Shown: positions 1,262-28,675 of the stretch, piece by piece
Position numbering within the stretch: position 1 is the first letter of the stretch
Layout: every line of letters begins with the position of its first letter
Assembly: GCA_021732625.1 (NCBI GenBank)
Contig: JAKFUP010000055.1
Span: 1 to 39,099 of the forward strand
Source: Hyphomicrobiales bacterium
GTDB taxonomy: Bacteria > Pseudomonadota > Alphaproteobacteria > Rhizobiales > Xanthobacteraceae
Reading direction: 5' to 3'
DNA length: 39,099 nucleotides
Program-made: the position numbers and the translations under genes
The notes under the pieces: model-generated
What the model was told of the DNA's origin: nothing
Databases searched by the model: none
The model's input: only the letters and a program-made list of their open reading frames with translations

Positions 1262-2487
1262 GCGCGCGTCATCCGGCCACGGTTAAAGATATCGCGCGGG
1301 TCGAAGCTCGATTTCACCCGGCGGTTCAACGCCGCAACGCCCTCGCTGTGCGGATGGAACACGTCAATCGCGCGACGCAACGGATCAGAGCCGCGAATCA
1401 GCGTGGCATGGCCGTCAATGGCTGCGAGTTTCGAACGAAGAAGTCCGGCATGCGCATCGGCCGACGGCGGTAGAGCCGCCCAGATCAAGCCGCCGCCCCA
1501 GTCATAAATCACATCACCACCGGTCTCGCGCGCAAGCTCGCGGCCAAACGCGCCGCCGGACGCAGGCGGGCAGACGATGCGCCAGACCGGCCACGCGCCG
1601 AGTGGGCCGGATGCCGCAAACGGCGTGACGTCGCGGATCGCCACCCATGCAGCCTGTGATGCCTCATCCTCGCATCGGTCCGCCTTGCCGAACGACACCA
1701 AGGCCGCGGTCAATGAATTGGCCCGATGCACCACCGAAGCGCCGATACCTTCCAGCCGCAGCAATGTCACAGCGCCTTGCGATCCGAGACCGGCCAGAAC
1801 GCCGGTCGCGCCGCGAAAAGCCGATTGCGGCAGGTGCGCCGCGCCCGAGACATCGAACGACGACCCAAGCGCGGCGCTCATTGCGCGCGTGGCCGTCACA
1901 TCGTCGAGGCCATGCAGCACCAGCGTGACCTCGTGCTCGGCCTTGGGCATGACTTTGAGGGTCACCTCGGTCATCACCGCCAGCGTGCCCCAGGATCCCG
2001 CGATCAGCTTGCAGAGATCGTAGCCGGTGACGTTCTTCACCACCTTGCCACCGGCCTTGAAGCTCTCTCCGAAGCCAGAGACCGCCGCAACCCCGAGCAG
2101 ATGATCGCGCGCGCCGCCGGACTTGATCCGGCGCGGACCGGCGAGACCTGCGGCAATGGTGCCGCCAATGGTTCCGGACAGCGAAGCCGTGCCGAGCAAA
2201 GCTGACGTGTCCATGGGCTCGAAATCGAATTCCTGATTCTTGGAATCGATCAGCGACTTGATATCCGCCATCGGTGCGCCGGCCTCGACGGTGAGGATCA
2301 GCTCGTTCGGCTCGTAGGACGTGACGCCATTGAGCGCGGACAGATCGAGCACCGCATTGGTCGCCATGGGCTGGCCGACGGCGCGTTTTGTGCCGTGACC
2401 GACGACCTCGAGCGGCTGTTCGGCCGCGATCGCGGCTTGCACCGCCTGCTCGACGTCCTTGGCATCGCGAATTTTCAGAATGTCCAC
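1258..2487 (-). CDS. glcE: Glycolate oxidase FAD-binding subunit GlcE
   Basis: Second flavin subunit of glycolate oxidase, about 409 residues. It has the N-terminal part of an FAD-binding PCMH/FAD_binding_4 domain (EVVGHGTKRAVGQP, then LSGTIGGTIAAGLAGPRR, then KNVTGYDLCKL) and ends in the short C-terminal HPHSEGVAALNRRVKSSFDP segment with NRGRM typical of GlcE. I chose the GTG at 2487 (protein begins MDILKIRDAKD). It lies 14 bases after the glcD stop and has a GAGG eight bases ahead, whereas the frame open upstream of it would overlap glcD by more than 100 bases. It sits between glcD and glcF in one operon and overlaps glcF by four bases. Compared with GlcD it lacks the full C-terminal FAD-oxidase domain, as is normal for the family. 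Confidence 0.93.
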   Translation of the reverse strand: MDILKIRDAKDVEQAVQAAIAAEQPLEVVGHGTKRAVGQPMATNAVLDLSALNGVTSYEPNELILTVEAGAPMADIKSLIDSKNQEFDFEPMDTSALLGTASLSGTIGGTIAAGLAGPRRIKSGGARDHLLGVAAVSGFGESFKAGGKVVKNVTGYDLCKLIAGSWGTLAVMTEVTLKVMPKAEHEVTLVLHGLDDVTATRAMSAALGSSFDVSGAAHLPQSAFRGATGVLAGLGSQGAVTLLRLEGIGASVVHRANSLTAALVSFGKADRCEDEASQAAWVAIRDVTPFAASGPLGAWPVWRIVCPPASGGAFGRELARETGGDVIYDWGGGLIWAALPPSADAHAGLLRSKLAAIDGHATLIRGSDPLRRAIDVFHPHSEGVAALNRRVKSSFDPRDIFNRGRMTRA

Positions 2488-2501
2488 GTCAAGCGCCTCG
2501 A

Positions 2502-3995
2502 TCAGAACCGCGGCAGATCGGGGAATGCGAGCTTGCCGCCGTGGACATGCACGCGGCCGAGTTCGGCGCAGCGATGCAGCGTGGGAAAAACCTTGCCCGG
2601 ATTGAGCAGGCCTTGCGGATCGAACGCGCACTTGATCCGCTGCTGCTGGGCAAGGTCGATATCGCTGAACATCTCGGGCATCAGATCGCGCTTCTCGACG
2701 CCGACGCCATGTTCGCCGGTGAGCACGCCGCCGAACTCGACGCAGGCACGCAAAATGTCCGCACCGAAGGCTTCCGCCTTGTCCATCTCGCCAGGCTTGT
2801 TGGCATCGTACAGGATCAGCGGATGCAGGTTGCCGTCACCGGCGTGGAAGACGTTAGCGACGCCGAGACCGTACTTTTGCGACAGCTCGCGGATTCGCGT
2901 CAGCGCCTGCGGCAGCTTGCCGCGCGGAATGGTGCCGTCCATGCACAGATAGTCCGGCGATATTCGCCCCACTGCTGGAAACGCCGCCTTGCGGCCCGAC
3001 CAGAACAACAGCCGCTCTTTCTCGGAGTTAGAAATTTGCAGCGTGGTCGCACCGCAATCCTTTGCGATCTTCTCGACGCGCGCGATCAGTTCGTCGACCT
3101 CGACCTCGGGCCCATCGAGTTCGCATATCAGCAACGCCTCGACCTCCAGCGGATAGCCGGCGTGTACGAAAGCTTCGGCGGCGTGGATCGCCGGCTTGTC
3201 CATGATCTCCATGGCGCCGGGAATGATACCGGCGCCGATCACGCGCGCCACGCATTCGCCGGAGGCTTCGACCTGCGGAAATCCGATCATCAGAGCGCGT
3301 GCGGTTTCAGGCTTCTTCAGGATACGGACCGTCACTTCAGTCACGACGCCGAGCAGACCTTCCGAACCGGTAATGATCCCCATCAGGTCGTAGCCGGCCT
3401 GCTCCGGCGCTTTACTTCCAATGCGCAGGACCTCGCCGTTGATGAGAATGATCTCGCAGCCGAGCACATTGTTGGTGGTCATGCCGTATTTCAGGCAATG
3501 CACGCCGCCGGAGTTTTCGCCGATGTTGCCGCCGATGGTACAGGCGATCTGCGACGACGGATCGGGCGCGTAGTAAAAACCCTCGTGCTCGACGGCCTGG
3601 CTGATGGCGAGGTTGGTGACGCCGGGCTCGGTGATCACGGTGCGGTTCTCGTAGTCGATATCGCGGATGCGCTTGAACTTGCCCATGCCGAGCAGCACGC
3701 CGTCGGCCAGTGGCAGCGCGCCGCCGGACAGCGATGTGCCCGCTCCCCGCGGCACCACCTTGATGCCGTTGTCGTGGCAGTATCTCAAAACCCGGCTGAC
3801 CTGTTCGGTGGTATCCGGCAACACCACCACCATCGGCGGCTGGCGATAGGCGGTAAGACCGTCCGACTCGTAGGGCTGCATCTCGGCGGCGCTGTCGATC
3901 ACCCCCTCGCCCGGCACGATCTCGCGCAGGGCGGCCACGATCGACGAACGGCGATCGAGAATCGCCTGATCGGGAACCGGCATCATGATGGACAT
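2502..3995 (-). CDS. glcD: Glycolate oxidase catalytic FAD subunit GlcD
   Basis: FAD-linked oxidase of 497 residues, the usual GlcD length. The PCMH-type FAD domain carries PRGAGTSLSGGALPLADG and IGGNIGENSGGVHCLKYG. The C-terminal FAD-oxidase domain carries HAGDGNLHPLILYD and GVLTGEHGVGVEKR, with the His and Glu residues expected for D-lactate/glycolate-type dehydrogenases. It oxidises glycolate, for example from 2-phosphoglycolate salvage, to glyoxylate at the membrane together with GlcE and GlcF. The ATG at 3995 has a GGAG eight bases upstream; an internal Met-Met four residues later is a weaker choice. It heads the glcDEF operon. No GlcC-type GntR regulator is visible nearby, so control is unknown. 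Confidence 0.96.
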   Translation of the reverse strand: MSIMMPVPDQAILDRRSSIVAALREIVPGEGVIDSAAEMQPYESDGLTAYRQPPMVVVLPDTTEQVSRVLRYCHDNGIKVVPRGAGTSLSGGALPLADGVLLGMGKFKRIRDIDYENRTVITEPGVTNLAISQAVEHEGFYYAPDPSSQIACTIGGNIGENSGGVHCLKYGMTTNNVLGCEIILINGEVLRIGSKAPEQAGYDLMGIITGSEGLLGVVTEVTVRILKKPETARALMIGFPQVEASGECVARVIGAGIIPGAMEIMDKPAIHAAEAFVHAGYPLEVEALLICELDGPEVEVDELIARVEKIAKDCGATTLQISNSEKERLLFWSGRKAAFPAVGRISPDYLCMDGTIPRGKLPQALTRIRELSQKYGLGVANVFHAGDGNLHPLILYDANKPGEMDKAEAFGADILRACVEFGGVLTGEHGVGVEKRDLMPEMFSDIDLAQQQRIKCAFDPQGLLNPGKVFPTLHRCAELGRVHVHGGKLAFPDLPRF

Positions 3996-22672: not shown

Positions 22673-23149
22673 TCAGTTCTGCGATGGATTGGCCGGCGGC
22701 GGTGTGGGCCGCGACTTGTGCTCCGACATGAACTGGTCGAACTCGGCCTTGTCCTTGGCGTGGCGCAGCCGGTCGAGGAAATCCTTGAACTCGGTTTGCT
22801 CTTCCTCAAGGCGGCGCAGCGTCTCGACGCGATAGTCATCGAAGGCGCGATTACCGCTCGATCTCGATGTGGAGTAAAATCCGCGGCCATCCATACGGTC
22901 GCGCATCCGTTCCATTTTGTACTGCATCCGCTCCATCTTGTCGGCAAAGCGGCCGTGGCGATTCCAGCAACCCATTTTCCTGCTCCAGAGTGTGAAAAAG
23001 AGAAGTGCGAGGCCAACCGGCCACCAGATGATGAAGCCGAGCACCGTCAGCAAGATCCAGCCAGGGTGCCGCGGCGAGTTGAGAAAGCCCGGATTCCGCT
23101 CATCGAAATGTGGGCGGCCCCAGCGATCGAAGTCTGCGGTGTTGGACAT
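22673..23149 (-). CDS. DUF2852 family membrane protein
   Basis: A 158-residue protein matching the alphaproteobacterial DUF2852 family. A short N-terminal stretch (FDERNPGFLNSPRHPGWI) leads to one membrane helix (LLTVLGFIIWWPVGLALLFF), followed by a charged helical cytoplasmic tail (ADKMERMQYKMERMRDRMD, then YRVETLRRLEEEQTEFKDFL, then FDQFMSEHKSRP). Function is unknown. The ATG at 23149 has GGAG seven bases ahead; the frame is open upstream but overlaps the next gene's downstream sequence. A clear terminator follows, so it is probably a single-gene transcript. Confidence 0.85.
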   Translation of the reverse strand: MSNTADFDRWGRPHFDERNPGFLNSPRHPGWILLTVLGFIIWWPVGLALLFFTLWSRKMGCWNRHGRFADKMERMQYKMERMRDRMDGRGFYSTSRSSGNRAFDDYRVETLRRLEEEQTEFKDFLDRLRHAKDKAEFDQFMSEHKSRPTPPPANPSQN

Positions 23150-23300
23150 ACGTTTCTCCATTGTCCGGTGACTGCCACCGTGAATGTAAATAACATTCAC
23201 ATACCTAAACCGTCCAGAGCAATTGTCAAGCAAAGGTCCACAAATTCTCTGGAGGGACGCGGCGATCTGCCGCGCAGCGCCTGAACCGGGACGGAGCGGA

Positions 23301-23978
23301 TCAGCCTGGTTTGCCGTCTTTCGGCATCTCATGTTGATGAGTATCGGTCGGAAATCCGAGCCCCTTCAAATAGATCAAGACACCCGCCTCAAGCAGGTCT
23401 TCCGCGGACATCGGCAGCGTGCGCCTCGCTGAATCGCCGCGACCAAACAGCGACGCAATTCCATGCGACAGCGACCAGATGTGCAACGCCATCATCAGCG
23501 CCGGAGGTTTCGTCACGCCCGGCGGGGTCATCGCGACAAGGCGTTCGGAGGCGAGCCGGATAATGTTGAAAGCCCGCTCGCTCGCAACGGTTAAATGCGG
23601 ATTGAGATGCAGCGGAACGCCTGACTCGAACATCGCCGAGTAGAGCGCAGGCTCGCTGCGCGCAAACGCGAGATAGGTTTTGCCCAATCGCTGGAACGCC
23701 GTCGGTGTATCAGGCCGGCCTTCATCCCATGACGCGACCAGCGCCGCCTCGAATTGTTCGAAGCCACGCTGCGCAATGCTGGCCAGCAATTCATCGCGAT
23801 CGCGGAAATGACGATAGGGCGCAGCCGGGCTGACGCCGGCAAGACGCGCGGCATCAGCAAACGTGAAGCCACCCGGCCCCTTCTCGGCGATCAGACCGAG
23901 AGCCGCGTCCTGCAACGCCTCTTTTAGATTGCCGTGGTGATAGCCCTCACGGCGGCCACGATCTTTGCGCCAACCCAT
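23301..23978 (-). CDS. TetR family regulator with WHG-type C-terminal domain
   Basis: A 225-residue TetR-type repressor. The HTH region (residues about 12-60) begins with GYHHGNLKEALQDAALGLI and includes LAGVSPAAPYRHFRDRDELL. The C-terminal domain carries HIWSLSHGIASLFGRG, the WHG motif of this TetR subgroup. Ligand unknown. The start is the ATG at 23978. It lies between a DUF2852 gene (151 bases downstream) and the end of the ArsR-led operon (178 bases upstream), all on the same strand, so its target could be itself or either neighbour. An inverted repeat lies just upstream of its start. Confidence 0.9.
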   Translation of the reverse strand: MGWRKDRGRREGYHHGNLKEALQDAALGLIAEKGPGGFTFADAARLAGVSPAAPYRHFRDRDELLASIAQRGFEQFEAALVASWDEGRPDTPTAFQRLGKTYLAFARSEPALYSAMFESGVPLHLNPHLTVASERAFNIIRLASERLVAMTPPGVTKPPALMMALHIWSLSHGIASLFGRGDSARRTLPMSAEDLLEAGVLIYLKGLGFPTDTHQHEMPKDGKPG

Positions 23979-24156: not shown

Positions 24157-24627
24157 TCAGGCTTTCACCGCATCATCGAGGCGGTCGAGACTTTGCGCCC
24201 AGCCCTGCTCCATGCCGGCCAGCATCTGCGGCGCAATCGGGGCGACAGCGATCGCATCGGCATGAACCGTGAGCTTTGTAGCGCGGCCGGAGGCCTCAAA
24301 CGAGATCACCGCAGCCTCGCTGAGCTGGATGCCTCCATCGCGATCGACGGCCTCGGCGCTGAATACCAGGCGATGAGGTTCGACAATCTCATGGAACGTC
24401 CCGGTCATCGGGTAGACGTTGCCGTCGGGAGCCATCATGTGGACCAGCATTTTGCCGCCGGGCCGCACGTCGATATCGCACACCGGATTGGTAAAACCCT
24501 TCGGTCCCCACCACTGCGCGAACTGTTCCGGCACTGTCCATGCCTTGAATACTGCCTCGCGCGGCGCGTTGATGACGCGAGTCATGGTCATCACGACGCG
24601 ATCGGGCAGTTTGGTTCGTGCGTTCAT
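24157..24627 (-). CDS. SRPBCC/AHSA1 domain protein
   Basis: A 156-residue START-like (AHSA1) protein with a hydrophobic ligand pocket fold: MTRVINAPREAVFKAWTVPE at the N-terminus, FAQWWGPKGFTNPVCDIDVR with the typical WWGP motif, GTFHEIVEPHRLVFS, and the C-terminal helix MEQGWAQSLDRLDDAV. It is the last gene of a six-gene, same-strand operon led by an ArsR regulator, 13 bases after the yjbR-like gene. Relatives are commonly encoded beside ArsR regulators. Their biochemical role is mostly unknown, with lipid or xenobiotic binding suggested by the fold. Confidence 0.9.
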   Translation of the reverse strand: MNARTKLPDRVVMTMTRVINAPREAVFKAWTVPEQFAQWWGPKGFTNPVCDIDVRPGGKMLVHMMAPDGNVYPMTGTFHEIVEPHRLVFSAEAVDRDGGIQLSEAAVISFEASGRATKLTVHADAIAVAPIAPQMLAGMEQGWAQSLDRLDDAVKA

Positions 24628-24640
24628 GACATCATCCTTT

Positions 24641-24979
24641 CTAAGCCTTGCTCTTTTTCACTTTTTTTGGCGGCGGCACCGCGTGACGCCATGCCGTCTC
24701 CAGTGCGGCTTTCATTTCGTCTGACGTCACCGCTTTCAGCGTCAAAGTGGTCCAGCCCTGCACGCCCCATGTATTCGGAATTCGCTTGAAGCCATCCGGC
24801 GCGGTCAGGCATTTCAGCTCCTGCTCGTCCGGTGTGAATTTGAGATTCACCGATTTTCCGTCTGCGGCTAGCGTCGCGTAGATACGCTTTACCTTGAACG
24901 CCGCGCGGTCGAAGTGCGGCGCTTCGCTCGTGCCCTCCAGCGTGAGAGCGATCTTGCGGAACTGCTGAGCCGTCGCCAT
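24641..24979 (-). CDS. MmcQ/YjbR family protein
   Basis: A 112-residue protein with the MmcQ/YjbR double-wing-like fold pattern: FRKIALTLEGTSEAPHFDRA, FKVKRIYATLAADGKSVNLK and WGVQGWTTLTLKAVTSDEMK. Members are annotated as DNA-binding by analogy with CyaY-like folds, but a cellular role is not established. The ATG at 24979 is chosen because it removes an unrelated N-terminal extension; GGGAA lies upstream. The C-terminus is lysine-rich. It sits in the ArsR-led operon, 16 bases after an SRPBCC gene and 13 before the AHSA1 gene. Confidence 0.88.
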   Translation of the reverse strand: MATAQQFRKIALTLEGTSEAPHFDRAAFKVKRIYATLAADGKSVNLKFTPDEQELKCLTAPDGFKRIPNTWGVQGWTTLTLKAVTSDEMKAALETAWRHAVPPPKKVKKSKA

Positions 24980-24995
24980 CGCTGCACTTTCCCGA

Positions 24996-25532
24996 TTACG
25001 CCTCGGAAATACGCTTGAGATTGGCAAGGCCGATCTCGAAATCGCCGCCCACCATCTTGTCCATGTTGATGAACACACTCATGACCTTGCCGATATAGGC
25101 ATTGGGACCCTGCATCACCCACGTCACCTGAGTGCTGTCGCCCTGCGGCACGAGGATGAAATCAACGACGTTATTGGCTTCGAACGGCCTCGTAAATTCG
25201 AGTTTGATCGTCACCTGCGACGGCGCAGCAGTATCCGTGATCGTCATCTTGCCGGTCCCGACATTCTTGTCGCCGTCCCATGCGTAGGTCGCGCCCTTTC
25301 CGGACGAAGGCGAACTGATCTCGCGCTTCATCGCCGGATCCTTGTGCTCATAGGGCGACCACGTCGTGAAACCCTGCAGATCGCTGATCAGCGGAAAGAT
25401 CTCCTGCGGCGGCGCCTTGATCGTCGTCGACCGCGCGACACGAAAAACATCCGGCTTGGTGGTGGCGTAGATCAAAACCGCAGCAATCGCGATCGCCAGA
25501 ACAACCGCTATGATGGTGATGACTTGCAACAT
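24996..25532 (-). CDS. Membrane-anchored SRPBCC (polyketide cyclase-like) protein
   Basis: A 178-residue protein with an N-terminal membrane helix (LQVITIIAVVLAIAIAAVLI) and an SRPBCC domain: RSTTIKAPPQEIFPLISDLQ, FTTWSPYEHKDPAMKREI, and a late MVGGDFEIGLANLKRI helix. The WSPYEHKDP motif is typical of the polyketide cyclase/dehydrase-like subgroup. The domain is probably on the periplasmic side or at the membrane surface and likely binds a hydrophobic molecule. It lies in the ArsR-led operon between a DoxX-like membrane protein (21 bases upstream) and the yjbR-like gene (16 bases downstream). Confidence 0.88.
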   Translation of the reverse strand: MLQVITIIAVVLAIAIAAVLIYATTKPDVFRVARSTTIKAPPQEIFPLISDLQGFTTWSPYEHKDPAMKREISSPSSGKGATYAWDGDKNVGTGKMTITDTAAPSQVTIKLEFTRPFEANNVVDFILVPQGDSTQVTWVMQGPNAYIGKVMSVFINMDKMVGGDFEIGLANLKRISEA

Positions 25533-25553
25533 CGTTTTCTCCTGAAACGATTT

Positions 25554-25973
25554 TCAGATGCGGCGAACCGGAAACTGCGCGCGAATCTCCGGGTCGCGCA
25601 AGTACAGGCCGCCCCAGATCAGAAGACCCAGATAAACCCCGAACAGCGTATGGCTGAATAGCGGATTGCCGATGCGGACATGGGTTGCAATCGCGCCACC
25701 GAGATAGCCGGTCAACAGAACGGCGCCGAGCAGCGCCGTGCGCGGCCAGACATAAAGCGCGGTGCAGACCAGCAGCAACACCCCGAGACTGCGGGCGAGT
25801 TCAACGGTTGCGGGGTAGCCGAGCTGCTGCATCGTTTCTGTCACGATCGGCAGCGGCACCAGCTTGATGGCGCCGTCGAAAATCAAAAACAGCACGACCA
25901 GACCTGTGAGAATCCGGCCGGTCCAGAGCATGCCGCGAGACGTCCCGAGCGCCGGTTGCGAGATAACAGTCAT
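25554..25973 (-). CDS. DoxX-like membrane protein
   Basis: A 139-residue protein with four hydrophobic helices and the DoxX-like (DoxX_2) pattern: RILTGLVVLFLIFDGAIKLV, TMQQLGYPATVELARSLGVL, LLTGYLGGAIATHVRIGNP and LIWGGLYLRDPEIRAQFP. The ATG at 25973 follows an AAGGA-rich stretch; the open frame upstream is not supported. DoxX-like proteins often travel with SRPBCC, VOC and ArsR genes, as here, but their role is not settled. Proposals include quinone- or thiol-linked redox functions. It is the third gene of the ArsR-led operon. Confidence 0.85.
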   Translation of the reverse strand: MTVISQPALGTSRGMLWTGRILTGLVVLFLIFDGAIKLVPLPIVTETMQQLGYPATVELARSLGVLLLVCTALYVWPRTALLGAVLLTGYLGGAIATHVRIGNPLFSHTLFGVYLGLLIWGGLYLRDPEIRAQFPVRRI

Positions 25974-26039
25974 GACATCCGTTTCCTTTACGTCAGAGAA
26001 CGGACGCCGCTGGCGCGGCATCCATTCAGATCAAATTGC

Positions 26040-26483
26040 TTAGGGTTGCGGCATTTTCATTGCTTCGGGCTTCGGATGCGCGAAACTCCATGCATGGCCG
26101 AACGGATCGAGCACCTGTCCGTAACGCGCGCCCCAGAACGCATCCATCGGCGGCATCGTGATTGTGGCGCCGGCATCGACCATGCGCTTGATCGCCGAAT
26201 CGCAGTCCGGCACTTCGATGTGGATCGTGACCGAGGTGCCCTTCAATTGCTTTGGCGGCTGGTAGTGATTGCCACCATGCTGCGCGGCGAATTCCGGGAA
26301 TGCATCGACCACGAAAATGCGCGCGCCGAGCACGTTGATCTCGGAATGCATCAGCCGATTGCCGTCTTCGTACGGCATACGAAACGTTTCGGTCGCGCCG
26401 AGGCCCTTCTTGTAGAATTCGAGCGCGGCGTTGGCGTTATCGACAACCAGATGCGGGGTCACAGTCTGTAGTTTCTCAGTCAT
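26040..26483 (-). CDS. VOC (glyoxalase/PhnB-like) family protein
   Basis: A 147-residue vicinal-oxygen-chelate protein of the PhnB-like group: TVTPHLVVDNANAALEFYKK opens the first beta-alpha-beta-beta-beta module and TSVTIHIEVPDCDSAIKRMV the second, ending in the PFGHAWSFA motif. Candidate metal or substrate contacts are His and Glu residues in these strands, but a full VOC metal triad cannot be confirmed by eye. It could be an isomerase, dioxygenase-like or binding protein. It is the second gene of the ArsR-led operon, 60 bases after arsR and 66 before the DoxX-like gene. Confidence 0.9.
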   Translation of the reverse strand: MTEKLQTVTPHLVVDNANAALEFYKKGLGATETFRMPYEDGNRLMHSEINVLGARIFVVDAFPEFAAQHGGNHYQPPKQLKGTSVTIHIEVPDCDSAIKRMVDAGATITMPPMDAFWGARYGQVLDPFGHAWSFAHPKPEAMKMPQP

Positions 26484-26543
26484 TTTTGCACTCCTGAACG
26501 GGACTTAGTCGAGTAAAACTCAAATTGGACAAAGCGATTGCCG

Positions 26544-26960
26544 CTATTTCTTTCCGCCGCGCTTTTTGTCTTTCGGCGGCTTCGGATTTCGAGGACCTCT
26601 CGGACTCCTCGGTCTTTGCGGCGGCAGGCCCTGTAATTCGCGCAGATAATCGTCGAGGCGGTCGAGACGCTGCTCCCAGAACTGCCGGTACTGATCCAGC
26701 CACTCATCGAGACTTTTCAACGCCTGCGGTTCGATCTTGCAGGGCCGCCATTGCGCCTCGCGGCTTCGCGTGATGAGGCCGGCACTTTCCAGAACCTTCA
26801 GATGCTTCGAGATCGCAGGTCCCGACATATCGAACGGTTTCGACAATTCGGTGACTGTCGTCTCGCCCCGCGCCAGCCGCGCGATGATGGCGCGGCGGGT
26901 CGGATCGGCAAGGGCTGCGAACGTGGCACTCAGCGGGTCCGGGGACATAGCCGGGGGCAT
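26544..26960 (-). CDS. ArsR family (non-metal type) transcriptional regulator
   Basis: A 138-residue winged-helix repressor. Residues 7-90 match the ArsR subgroup found with AHSA1 genes: TFAALADPTRRAIIARLARG, VTELSKPFDMSGPAISKHLK (recognition helix), VLESAGLITRSREAQWRPCK. The metal-site motif ELCVCDL of ArsR/SmtB sensors is absent. The tail is Arg/Lys/Pro-rich and ends KDKKRGGKK. The ATG at 26960 has no visible ribosome site and sits only 5 bases from a near-palindromic operator, so the message may be leaderless; an ATG at 26948 is the alternative. It leads an operon with VOC, DoxX-like, SRPBCC, YjbR and AHSA1 genes and probably represses it. Confidence 0.92.
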   Translation of the reverse strand: MPPAMSPDPLSATFAALADPTRRAIIARLARGETTVTELSKPFDMSGPAISKHLKVLESAGLITRSREAQWRPCKIEPQALKSLDEWLDQYRQFWEQRLDRLDDYLRELQGLPPQRPRSPRGPRNPKPPKDKKRGGKK

Positions 26961-26965
26961 TGATA

Positions 26966-26993
26966 AACCATCTGGTTAATTAACTGATTGGTT
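26966..26993. promoter_or_regulatory. Candidate ArsR operator/promoter
   Basis: A 28-base dyad: outer arms AACCA and TGGTT, centred on the perfect palindrome GTTAATTAAC. It is AT-rich in a GC-rich genome and begins 5 bases before the arsR start codon, so a bound ArsR would block both polymerase and ribosome access. Confidence 0.6.
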
Positions 26994-27037
26994 CAGTAAT
27001 TAATCCGGCTTCGCCTGTCAAGCAATGGTTCAGCAAT

Positions 27038-27646
27038 TTAGATGGAGCGTCGTTGCGATCGCTCGGGCCGGGTCAACATCAAGCGCCTGTGCGATCGCAT
27101 CAGCGCCCGCGAAAACACTTTTCTGTCGTTGACCGCACGCGCCAGCACCAGCGCGCCCTGAATCTCGAGTACCGCCTGCTCGGCCAGATGCCGCGCGACT
27201 GTTGGCGAATGACCCAGCTTGCGCAGCGCCAACGCCAGTGCATCGACCCACGCGACGAAGTATTCCTTCACACGATCGGCGAAAAGATCGCGCGCATTGC
27301 CGAGCGCGACAACGCCGATCAGGCACACGCGACGTCCGGAGCGGAAATAAGTGTCCACGCCAGCGAACATATCCGCGATTCCGCCGCGCGGATCGGACGC
27401 CTTGCGCAGCGGCCGATAGATCTCTGTGACGAACCACGCATCGATCGACCCCAGCACCTCGGCCGCCATCTGCTCTTTCCCACCGGGAAAGAAGTGATAG
27501 AGGCTGCCCTTGCCGAGGCCGGTCGCCTCCGAGATCAGCGCCAGCGACGCGCCCTCGTAGCCATGCGCACGAAAAACCTCTCCCAAGGCCGAGAGCAATT
27601 CTGCTCGGCCTGCAAGCGAGCTTTTTGTGCGGGCTGGCTCAGGCAA
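27038..27646 (-). CDS. TetR family regulator (LmrA/YxaF-like)
   Basis: A 202-residue TetR-type repressor. The HTH contains ELLSALGEVFRAHGYEGASL and GLGKGSLYHFFPGGKEQMAA; the FPGGKEQ extension marks the LmrA/YxaF-like subgroup. The C-terminal domain includes VCLIGVVALGNARDLFADRV. It starts one base after the DUF1348 stop on the same strand, so the pair is surely co-transcribed and probably co-translated. A perfect inverted repeat overlapping the promoter of the pair is its likely operator. LmrA-type regulators respond to small aromatic compounds in characterised cases; the ligand here is unknown. Confidence 0.92.
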   Translation of the reverse strand: MPEPARTKSSLAGRAELLSALGEVFRAHGYEGASLALISEATGLGKGSLYHFFPGGKEQMAAEVLGSIDAWFVTEIYRPLRKASDPRGGIADMFAGVDTYFRSGRRVCLIGVVALGNARDLFADRVKEYFVAWVDALALALRKLGHSPTVARHLAEQAVLEIQGALVLARAVNDRKVFSRALMRSHRRLMLTRPERSQRRSI

Positions 27647-27647
27647 G

Positions 27648-28115
27648 TTACAATGGGCTTTCAGTCAGGCCGGGATAATCCGCTGGACGCGGACCGGGGG
27701 CTGGCCAGAGGAAGCGCCGCTCGCTCTCCTTGATGACGGTATCGTTGATGCTGGCTTCGCGGCGTCTCATCAGTCCAGCTTCGCTGAACTCCCACTGCTC
27801 ATTGCCGTAGGAGCGGTGCCACTGGCCATCGGCATCATGCCACTCGTATTGGAAACGCACAGCAATACGATTGTCGTGAAACGCCCACAGATCCTTGATC
27901 AGGCGATAATCCATCTCCTTTTCCCATTTACGCTTGAGAAATTCGACGATGGCAGGCCGGCCCTGAAAGAACTCGCCGCGGTTACGCCAGGTACTGTCTT
28001 CGGTATAGGCGAGTGATACCCGCTCGGGATCGCGAAAATTCCAGGCGTCTTCCGCCATGCGCGCCTTCTGCGCAGCGGTTTCCTTTGTGAAAGGCGGAAA
28101 AGGCGGACGGGACAT
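27648..28115 (-). CDS. DUF1348 family NTF2-like protein
   Basis: A 155-residue member of the DUF1348 family with an NTF2-like fold: [59 protein letters not shown], then [20 protein letters not shown] and the final [16 protein letters not shown]2-like proteins form cone-shaped pockets and can be enzymes or binding proteins; no activity is established for this family. The ATG at 28115 is chosen for GAGGAAA nine bases upstream, rather than a longer frame that would run through the operator. It is the first gene of a two-gene unit with a TetR regulator. Confidence 0.92.
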
Positions 28116-28154
28116 GGCGGCGATTTCCTCACTGGCTTGATCCGGCGTGCGGAA

Positions 28155-28181
28155 ATTGTACCTATTGGTACAAAATATCAA
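28155..28181 (-). promoter_or_regulatory. Promoter with overlapping TetR operator for DUF1348-tetR
   Basis: The perfect inverted repeat TTGTACC-TATT-GGTACAA (28156-28173) overlaps a minus-strand -10-like TACAAT (28155-28160) and sits between it and a -35-like TTGATA (28176-28181; spacing 15). Binding there would block polymerase. It lies about 40 bases upstream of the DUF1348 start. Confidence 0.7.
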
Positions 28182-28216
28182 GAGCGTTTGCGAAATCTCG
28201 AGATCAGATTTGCCTG

Positions 28217-28675
28217 TCAAGGCAAGGTTGTTTGGTCCGCCCGCATCAGGATACGAAGCGCCTTCGGGATTGGTTTTGCCCGGCCATCGGATACGAACGC
28301 CACCTTCACTTTGGCCTCAACCAGAATCTCCGTGCCGCGCGACACCTTTTGCCCGAGCGTCATCGAAGCGCCTTTGACCTCGAGTGGCCAGGTGGTGACT
28401 TCCAGCAAGTCATCCATTCGCGCAGGTCGGAGAAATTCAAGCTGCATCGATCGCACGACGAAGGCAAAACCCGGCGCCTCGGCTTCAGCCTCGGCAAACA
28501 GTGCGTGCTGATCGGCACCCAGCAGCCGCAGATAGTTGGTGCGGCCGCGCTCCATGAATTTCAGATAATTGGCGTGATAGACGATGCCGGAAAAATCAGT
28601 GTCTTCATAATAGACCCGGACCTGCATGACATGCCGGCCGTCGCGTACCGCACCATCGAGATTGTTCTCTGCCAC
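28217..28675 (-). CDS. ybgC: Tol-Pal-associated acyl-CoA thioesterase YbgC
   Basis: A 152-residue hot-dog-fold thioesterase. The YbgC signature is present: [20 protein letters not shown], with the catalytic Asp, then [14 protein letters not shown] and [19 protein letters not shown] chose the GTG at 28675 because GAGGA lies five bases upstream; the longer frame starts at an ATG inside a region that would run into the tandem repeat. In related genomes ybgC directly precedes tolQ. Here an accessory block of about 6 kb lies between them. It probably hydrolyses short-chain acyl-CoAs or acyl-ACP and is linked to envelope lipid metabolism. Confidence 0.93.

Follow-up and report, generated by a model that had tools for sequence, protein, structure and literature searches.

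Analysis of a 39,099-nucleotide contig from a Hyphomicrobiales bacterium of the Xanthobacteraceae related to Bradyrhizobium (JAKFUP010000055.1, assembly GCA_021732625.1), referred to at its full length as the window, identified six minus-strand open reading frames at 24157-26960 that encode, in order, an ArsR-family repressor, a VOC protein, a DoxX-like membrane protein, a membrane-anchored SRPBCC protein, a YjbR protein, and a soluble SRPBCC protein of the AHSA1 family (Table 1). We regard this six-gene unit as an enlarged version of the ArsR-AHSA1 operon, situated at a locus that either was once an ECF42 sigma factor locus or is parallel to one. The new point is the position, an ArsR operon at the place of the ECF42 locus in its family; the parts themselves are ordinary.

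A tightly spaced operon led by a non-metal ArsR repressor

Intergenic gaps, counted with the DoxX-like gene starting at the ATG at 25973, are 60, 66, 21, 16, and 13 bases from arsR to the AHSA1 gene. These positions bear out the initial annotation, made from the letters of the window, which had described six same-strand genes with gaps of 13-66 bases, and they support its reading of an ArsR-led run with operon spacing. Its family names also held, including the separate membrane-anchored and soluble SRPBCC proteins: the six proteins match HTH_20/HTH_5, Glyoxalase, DoxX_2, Polyketide_cyc2, YjbR, and AHSA1, all above the Pfam gathering scores, and the AHSA1 match reaches 104.1 bits (cut-off 22.1) in a gene on the arsR strand with gaps of at most 66 bases. 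Four histidines of the VOC protein are conserved in 10/10 aligned sequences, the window's own counted. ArsR, AHSA1, and VOC are common families, and the rarer part is the core of DoxX and membrane SRPBCC together with its regulator. A terminator scan reported 11 terminator-like sites, none of them at the operon end.

Table 1 Features of the operon, its control region, and its flanks (window coordinates)
Feature	Position	Strand	Remarks
ArsR-family repressor	26544..26960	-	138 aa, no metal ligands, single Cys (C74) in wing
VOC (glyoxalase-fold) protein	26040..26483	-	147 aa, Glyoxalase 1.7e-14
DoxX-like (DoxX_2) membrane protein	25554..25973	-	139 aa, DoxX_2 2.9e-19
Membrane-anchored SRPBCC (Polyketide_cyc2) protein	24996..25532	-	178 aa, helix 2-23 and START-like fold
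YjbR protein	24641..24979	-	112 aa, Pfam 3.4e-10
AHSA1 soluble SRPBCC protein	24157..24627	-	156 aa, Pfam 8e-30
-35 box TTGACA of arsR promoter	27016..27021	-	read from sequence; TTGAC phasing in other sites
Operator dyad AACCAATCAGTTAATTAACCAGATGGTT	26966..26993	strand-neutral	likely operator; same place before other arsR genes; unique in assembly
GC-rich hairpin at AHSA1 stop codon	24125..24157	-	possible unit end; no T run; z -2.44
Upstream flank, TetR and DUF1348	27038..28220	-	synteny anchor, outside operon
Downstream flank, TetR and DUF2852	22673..23978	-	synteny anchor, outside operon

In an alignment of 54 ArsR proteins, restricted like the corresponding tree to scores over 120, we found no cysteine pair and no conserved histidine in the C-terminal helix, and hence no metal site, which agrees with the earlier call of a non-metal ArsR. 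The metal-ligand site is defined here as is generally known for ArsR proteins. The only cysteine of the window protein, C74, is kept in 46/54 aligned proteins. Residues 11-84 match the NCBIfam metalloregulator model NF033788 (87.3 bits, cut-off 55); despite this match, identity with the metal-sensing ArsR/SmtB proteins was rejected, the ligand residues being absent from the alignment. Identity with the SdpR autorepressor was also rejected (NCBIfam 63.9 bits, cut-off 100). Among solved structures, chain 3f6o is nearest in sequence (4.8e-27). The window genome encodes four ArsR genes of this kind, and the other three each adjoin an AHSA1 gene. Two ArsR-AHSA1 pairs in opposite orientation lie within 3 kb of each other in the same genome (contig C56, 5398-8281).

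An AlphaFold2 model of the membrane SRPBCC protein (52 sequences) has a predicted local distance difference test (pLDDT) value of 91.7 and consists of the N-terminal helix followed by a helix-grip domain. Its nearest folds belong to two groups that score alike at Z 15-16, hormone receptors of the PYR/PYL type and START-like proteins of bacteria: PYR1 (Z 16.4), PYL10 (Z 16.2), and the bacterial CV1439 (Z 15.9) are effectively level, and Foldseek returned 281 matches at E up to 0.001. A sequence search of the PDB with this protein gave no match up to E 1. The modelled fold fits the binding of a hydrophobic molecule and names no ligand.

A conserved, likely operator before arsR

Behind the TTGACA box, at a 17-base spacer, lies a probable -10 element, TACTGA, which overlaps the first base of a 28-base dyad; a generic sigma-70 scan found 0 promoters and did not pick up this box. 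The dyad is present where the initial annotation had placed it, ending five bases before the arsR ATG at 26960. Its self-complementarity (20/28) was equalled in 111/2000 dinucleotide shuffles of the 150-base stretch. On its own the dyad is weak and within chance, and the case for an operator rests on conservation in other genomes.

We compared the upstream stretches of 53 ArsR homologues whose proteins are 36-75% identical to that of the window, leaving out the near-identical one at locus L005 of a close relative. The window 28-mer was matched in 36/53 stretches at p<0.05, where about 3 are expected, and in 30/53 at p<0.01; these p values are incompletely independent as related genes share ancestry, and one stretch without upstream DNA (L014) is void, yet counted as a miss. 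The letters common to the sites are AACC-N5-GTTAATTAAC-N5-GGTT, both 5-base spacers being free. The distance from the first base of TTGAC to the operator is exactly 28 nt in 23 of the 41 sites with at least 16/28 matches (window and L005 included), and in 28 of them it falls within 27-29 nt, although TTGAC played no part in their selection. Searched at up to 3 mismatches across the 3.77-Mb assembly, the consensus has one site, the exact one before the window arsR, and no second full operator that would point to a wider ArsR regulon was found. The half pattern AACCANNTGGTT recurs once, exactly, on contig C30 (5755-5766) of this genome.

Because it recurs before other arsR genes, is phased with TTGAC, and is unique in the assembly, the dyad is likely the operator of this ArsR. 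Between the end of the upstream TetR gene and arsR lie about 80 bases in the window and about 130 bases in L005, where that TetR gene is a different one; since the two loci both preserve the promoter and the operator, a promoter of its own would be a simpler reading for arsR than read-through from TetR. By eye, purine-rich ribosome sites precede the VOC, DoxX, SRPBCC, and AHSA1 genes, and none precedes arsR, whose leader (26961-26993) lacks one because the operator fills it. Only one of 39 operator-bearing arsR leaders has an AGGA, GGAG, or GAGG site (39 of the 41 were scored, two having no start codon within reach). The missing site may keep repressor synthesis low relative to that of the downstream genes.

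Two regulators over related membrane genes

The comparison covered 54 membrane-SRPBCC loci: the window, 13 loci from a species collection, and 40 loci taken from the 74 other matches that 297 genomes of the order gave; G109 and G191, which score like G074, and weaker membrane-SRPBCC matches are omitted. Locus labels came from profiles built from these loci and applied to stop-to-stop open reading frames. A further 40 ArsR regions were taken from the ArsR matches, weaker ones being left out. Within 3.5 kb of the SRPBCC gene, an ArsR gene occurs in 10/54 loci, an ECF42 sigma factor gene, marked by DUF6596, in 24/54, and neither in 20/54. The full six-gene set occurs in two loci, the window and L005, in the same order, and an AHSA1-profile frame is present in 38/40 further ArsR loci (37 on the ArsR strand), a membrane SRPBCC gene in 0/40. 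The gene-neighbourhood check proposed at the outset thus revealed partial co-occurrence in relatives, and the six-gene set itself is not a conserved unit.

The ArsR-linked layouts vary. Two loci of family f20 (L061, L062) read ArsR-DUF6958-VOC-DoxX-SRPBCC-DUF1579; L066 reads ArsR-SRPBCC-YjbR, L067 ArsR-AHSA1-SRPBCC-VOC, and L077 (5117-8581) DoxX-AHSA1-ArsR-double AHSA1-RibD-membrane SRPBCC. In family f23 (L077, L074, L079, L082) ArsR stands mid-operon with no operator before it, and in the L074 variant a PNPOx-type oxidase comes next. Seven loci (L058, L060, L063, L065, L069, L071, L072) hold DoxX-SRPBCC or VOC-SRPBCC pairs with ArsR and ECF42 out of reach, and a third control mode may exist for such pairs.

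The ECF42-linked loci carry a promoter pattern, TGTCG-N16-18-CGTC, modelled on start sites of Sinorhizobium meliloti RpoE10 (PMC6180224; here and below, papers are cited for the portions of their text that were available). We found it in the 250 nt that precede the start of SRPBCC or DoxX in 15/24 ECF42-linked, 0/10 ArsR-linked, and 0/20 other loci, and an antisense control gave 1 match in 68 upstream stretches. In L010 and L011 the start of the window VOC orthologue is preceded, at about 60 nt, by an ECF42-type motif; such a motif, read by hand, also precedes the start of DoxX by about 40-105 nt in 7 of 15 further DoxX loci without SRPBCC. The window locus has no TGTCG...CGTC promoter, no ECF42 label, and no YCII gene.

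The operon occupies the place of an ECF42 locus

A synteny search with 42 window genes as queries showed that the genes downstream of the operon (TetR, DUF2852, and as many as nine others) are collinear in 8/8 genus-g2 genomes, whose rows cluster with named Bradyrhizobium in the SRPBCC tree, and in genome G236. For window gene 12989, the relatives' match lies at a non-collinear place. At this one locus two contents are found: the relatives carry YCII-ECF42-(DoxX)-SRPBCC-VOC (G236 without SRPBCC), and L005 and the window ArsR-VOC-DoxX-SRPBCC-YjbR-AHSA1. Upstream, L005 reads DUF1348-TetR, then a divergent GST-TetR pair (2022-3446), then arsR directly, and the same GST-TetR pair stands before YCII-ECF42 in all 8 g2 genomes, L006, and G236. 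Identities of the L005 pair are 52-58% (TetR) and 66-69% (GST) to g2 and L006, and 44% and 66% to G236. With its GST-TetR pair and its DUF1348-TetR genes, L005 closes the upstream synteny gap and strengthens the collinearity. Together these results strongly indicate that, by position, the locus corresponds to the family's YCII-ECF42-DoxX-SRPBCC-VOC locus, a relationship not visible from the window alone; the earlier interpretation is, overall, partly supported.

The ECF42 mark DUF6596 occurs in 132/297 genomes of the order and in 10/10 other sampled members of the family, and no match was found in the window assembly (90.6% complete) or in the L005 genome. Replacement of the regulator at this locus, a sigma factor exchanged for a repressor, is well supported. 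Parsimony needs five steps for the ArsR label on the SRPBCC tree and likewise five for the SRPBCC link on the ArsR tree, and a single origin of the link, with all 10 ArsR-linked SRPBCC rows together, is disfavoured by the approximately unbiased test (p-AU 0.028). The same test does not reject the window with its own family for either SRPBCC (p-AU 0.443) or DoxX (p-AU 0.195).

On this comparative evidence the unit is probably a dedicated, self-repressed operon at the positional counterpart of the ECF42 locus, in which ArsR and its operator now run the output genes. For the wider proposal, that a self-repressing ArsR replaced ECF42 over the same output of DoxX and membrane SRPBCC and that such exchanges were repeated in the order, we put the chances at about even.

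Several observations weigh against this reading of the operon and its locus. Only G194 and G171 have the window TetR and DUF1348 genes close to the locus, and G216 shares this flank from DUF1348 onward; DUF1348 is 25 kb off in G270, and neither gene was found in the stretches taken from G112, G143, G035, G253, G236, and G077, the last giving no matches with the window gene queries. The GST-TetR pair is absent from the window itself. The promoter motif is missing within 250 nt in 9/24 ECF42-linked loci, and in L053, one of the 15 positives, it lies 218 nt out. The operator is not matched at p<0.05 in 17/53 ArsR upstream stretches, including four SRPBCC-linked ones of family f23 with arsR inside the operon. 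Incompleteness of the window assembly may have hidden an ECF42 gene, though the L005 genome lacks one too. An order-wide tie between ArsR control and ECF42 loss was tried and rejected, DUF6596 being absent in 6/10 ArsR-linked genomes versus 165/297 overall. Counted on starred branches only, each tree calls for no more than a single origin of the ArsR link, and the trees do not decide between in-place rewiring and an outside cassette.

The strongest competing explanation is such a cassette: the whole ArsR-VOC-DoxX-SRPBCC-YjbR-AHSA1 set could have been imported, displacing the resident ECF42 cluster without any re-regulation of resident genes. The window SRPBCC and DoxX proteins are only 55-63% identical to the family counterparts at the locus, similar ArsR-(DUF6958)-VOC-DoxX-SRPBCC sets exist in family f20, and grouping the window SRPBCC rows with L061 and L062 is tolerated (p-AU 0.132). 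However, that grouping costs 14.65 log units against 1.36 for the family SRPBCC grouping, and the flanks are the resident ones; we regard import as a minority possibility, perhaps one chance among several.

A second explanation follows the proposal made for COG3832: the ArsR-AHSA1 pair would be a module resembling a toxin-antitoxin system or serving antibiotic self-sacrifice, and the other genes would be passengers. The ArsR-COG3832 pair, its metal motifs missing, has been listed among toxin-antitoxin-like stable pairs, with antibiotic resistance, CalC being the example, called the most plausible role (PMC2701414), and the three other ArsR-AHSA1 neighbours of the window genome would fit it. 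Yet AHSA1 is here the last gene, four genes from arsR, most of the 54 membrane-SRPBCC loci have no labelled AHSA1 gene within 5 kb, and the Rv0910-toxin model scores the membrane SRPBCC protein at 17.6 bits (cut-off 100), which leaves this explanation improbable. Slightly more improbable still is a chance assembly of common small stress-type families in which arsR and its operator alone form the unit: YjbR lies near the membrane SRPBCC gene in just 2/30 genomes with a YjbR match and the full set is confined to two loci, but the gaps are short, the order is kept in L005, the ArsR-SRPBCC link is spread over several families, and DoxX of this type stands immediately before SRPBCC in 13/54 loci.

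Relation to known systems

A two-gene module of ArsR and COG3832 (AHSA1/START) was described in 2009 by Makarova, Wolf, and Koonin (PMC2701414), so that the ArsR-AHSA1 association was already on record when the initial annotation took the joint function of the set to be undescribed. The window operon shares with this module a non-metal ArsR repressor, an AHSA1 gene in one unit, and several copies per genome. It departs from the module in having the VOC, DoxX, membrane SRPBCC, and YjbR genes between ArsR and AHSA1, and in a locus that either derives from an ECF42 locus or displaced one. As AHSA1 does not lie beside ArsR, we class the operon as an expanded form related to the ArsR-COG3832 pair and no plain member of it.

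The closest tested model is Rv2034-Rv2035-Rv2036 of Mycobacterium tuberculosis, where a self-repressing ArsR protein with a suggested lipid link has a Polyketide_cyc2 gene in its operon and a footprint from -30 to +3 over a palindrome beside its own start codon (PMC3338718). A start-codon palindrome and a Polyketide_cyc2 gene behind ArsR are common to both systems. The Rv2034 operator, CCGTAAGT-N4-ACTTACGG (20 bp), differs in its letters from that of the window, and DoxX, VOC, YjbR, and AHSA1 members are not mentioned in the available portion of that paper; Rv2034 is said there to act on many other genes, whereas the window assembly has one full site. The metal-responsive autoregulator ArsR of Brucella (PMC8509827) was not used for comparison.

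With the ECF42 loci (S. meliloti RpoE10, PMC6180224; PMC8999054) the operon has in common a DoxX and membrane SRPBCC output and, in family f1, the chromosomal place. Unlike them it has no ECF42 sigma gene, YCII gene, or TGTCG...CGTC promoter, with repressor control instead. A link with oxidative stress and with antibiotic stress has been described for the Pseudomonas putida sigma factor ECF-10 (PMC8999054, PMC6180224); a possible stress output of the window operon would be of a similar kind. In the portions of the literature examined, neither ECF42 sigma factors nor ArsR-AHSA1 repressors are assigned a natural signal, and nothing in open-licence papers links ECF42 with ArsR or with DGPF, a search that is weak as evidence of absence.

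A model for the operon

The TTGACA box, the 28-bp operator reaching up to the arsR start codon, and the six tightly spaced genes suggest an operator mechanism in which an ArsR dimer would bind the AACC...GGTT site and block RNA polymerase, repressing arsR itself and the five genes behind it on what would be one mRNA. A small ligand or a thiol reaction may release ArsR; the conserved wing residue Cys74 is one candidate, and its role as sensor is a guess. DoxX and the membrane-anchored START-fold protein would work in the membrane as one unit for binding a hydrophobic molecule, and the VOC, YjbR, and soluble AHSA1 proteins may act on or buffer the same compound, although both the class of ligand and the parts played by DoxX, VOC, YjbR, and AHSA1 are guesses. 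Sensing of an electrophile or lipophile at the membrane, as first proposed for these genes, may be the function and would agree with the fold and the families. In the lineage of the window, the sigma factor would have been lost from the locus and ArsR/operator control, as in the common ArsR-AHSA1 module, would have taken over.

If this is correct, the signals of ECF42 and of ArsR-AHSA1 would be the same or closely related, and either system could serve to identify the inducer of its counterpart. Exchange of the two regulators over the same membrane genes would tie both signal problems together, and an inducer search could start from the defined operator of 28 bp and the simple reporter that the locus provides.

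Antisense to the VOC and DoxX genes, a 263-aa open frame extends along the plus strand at 25680-26471, and is probably a by-product of codon bias in the underlying genes.

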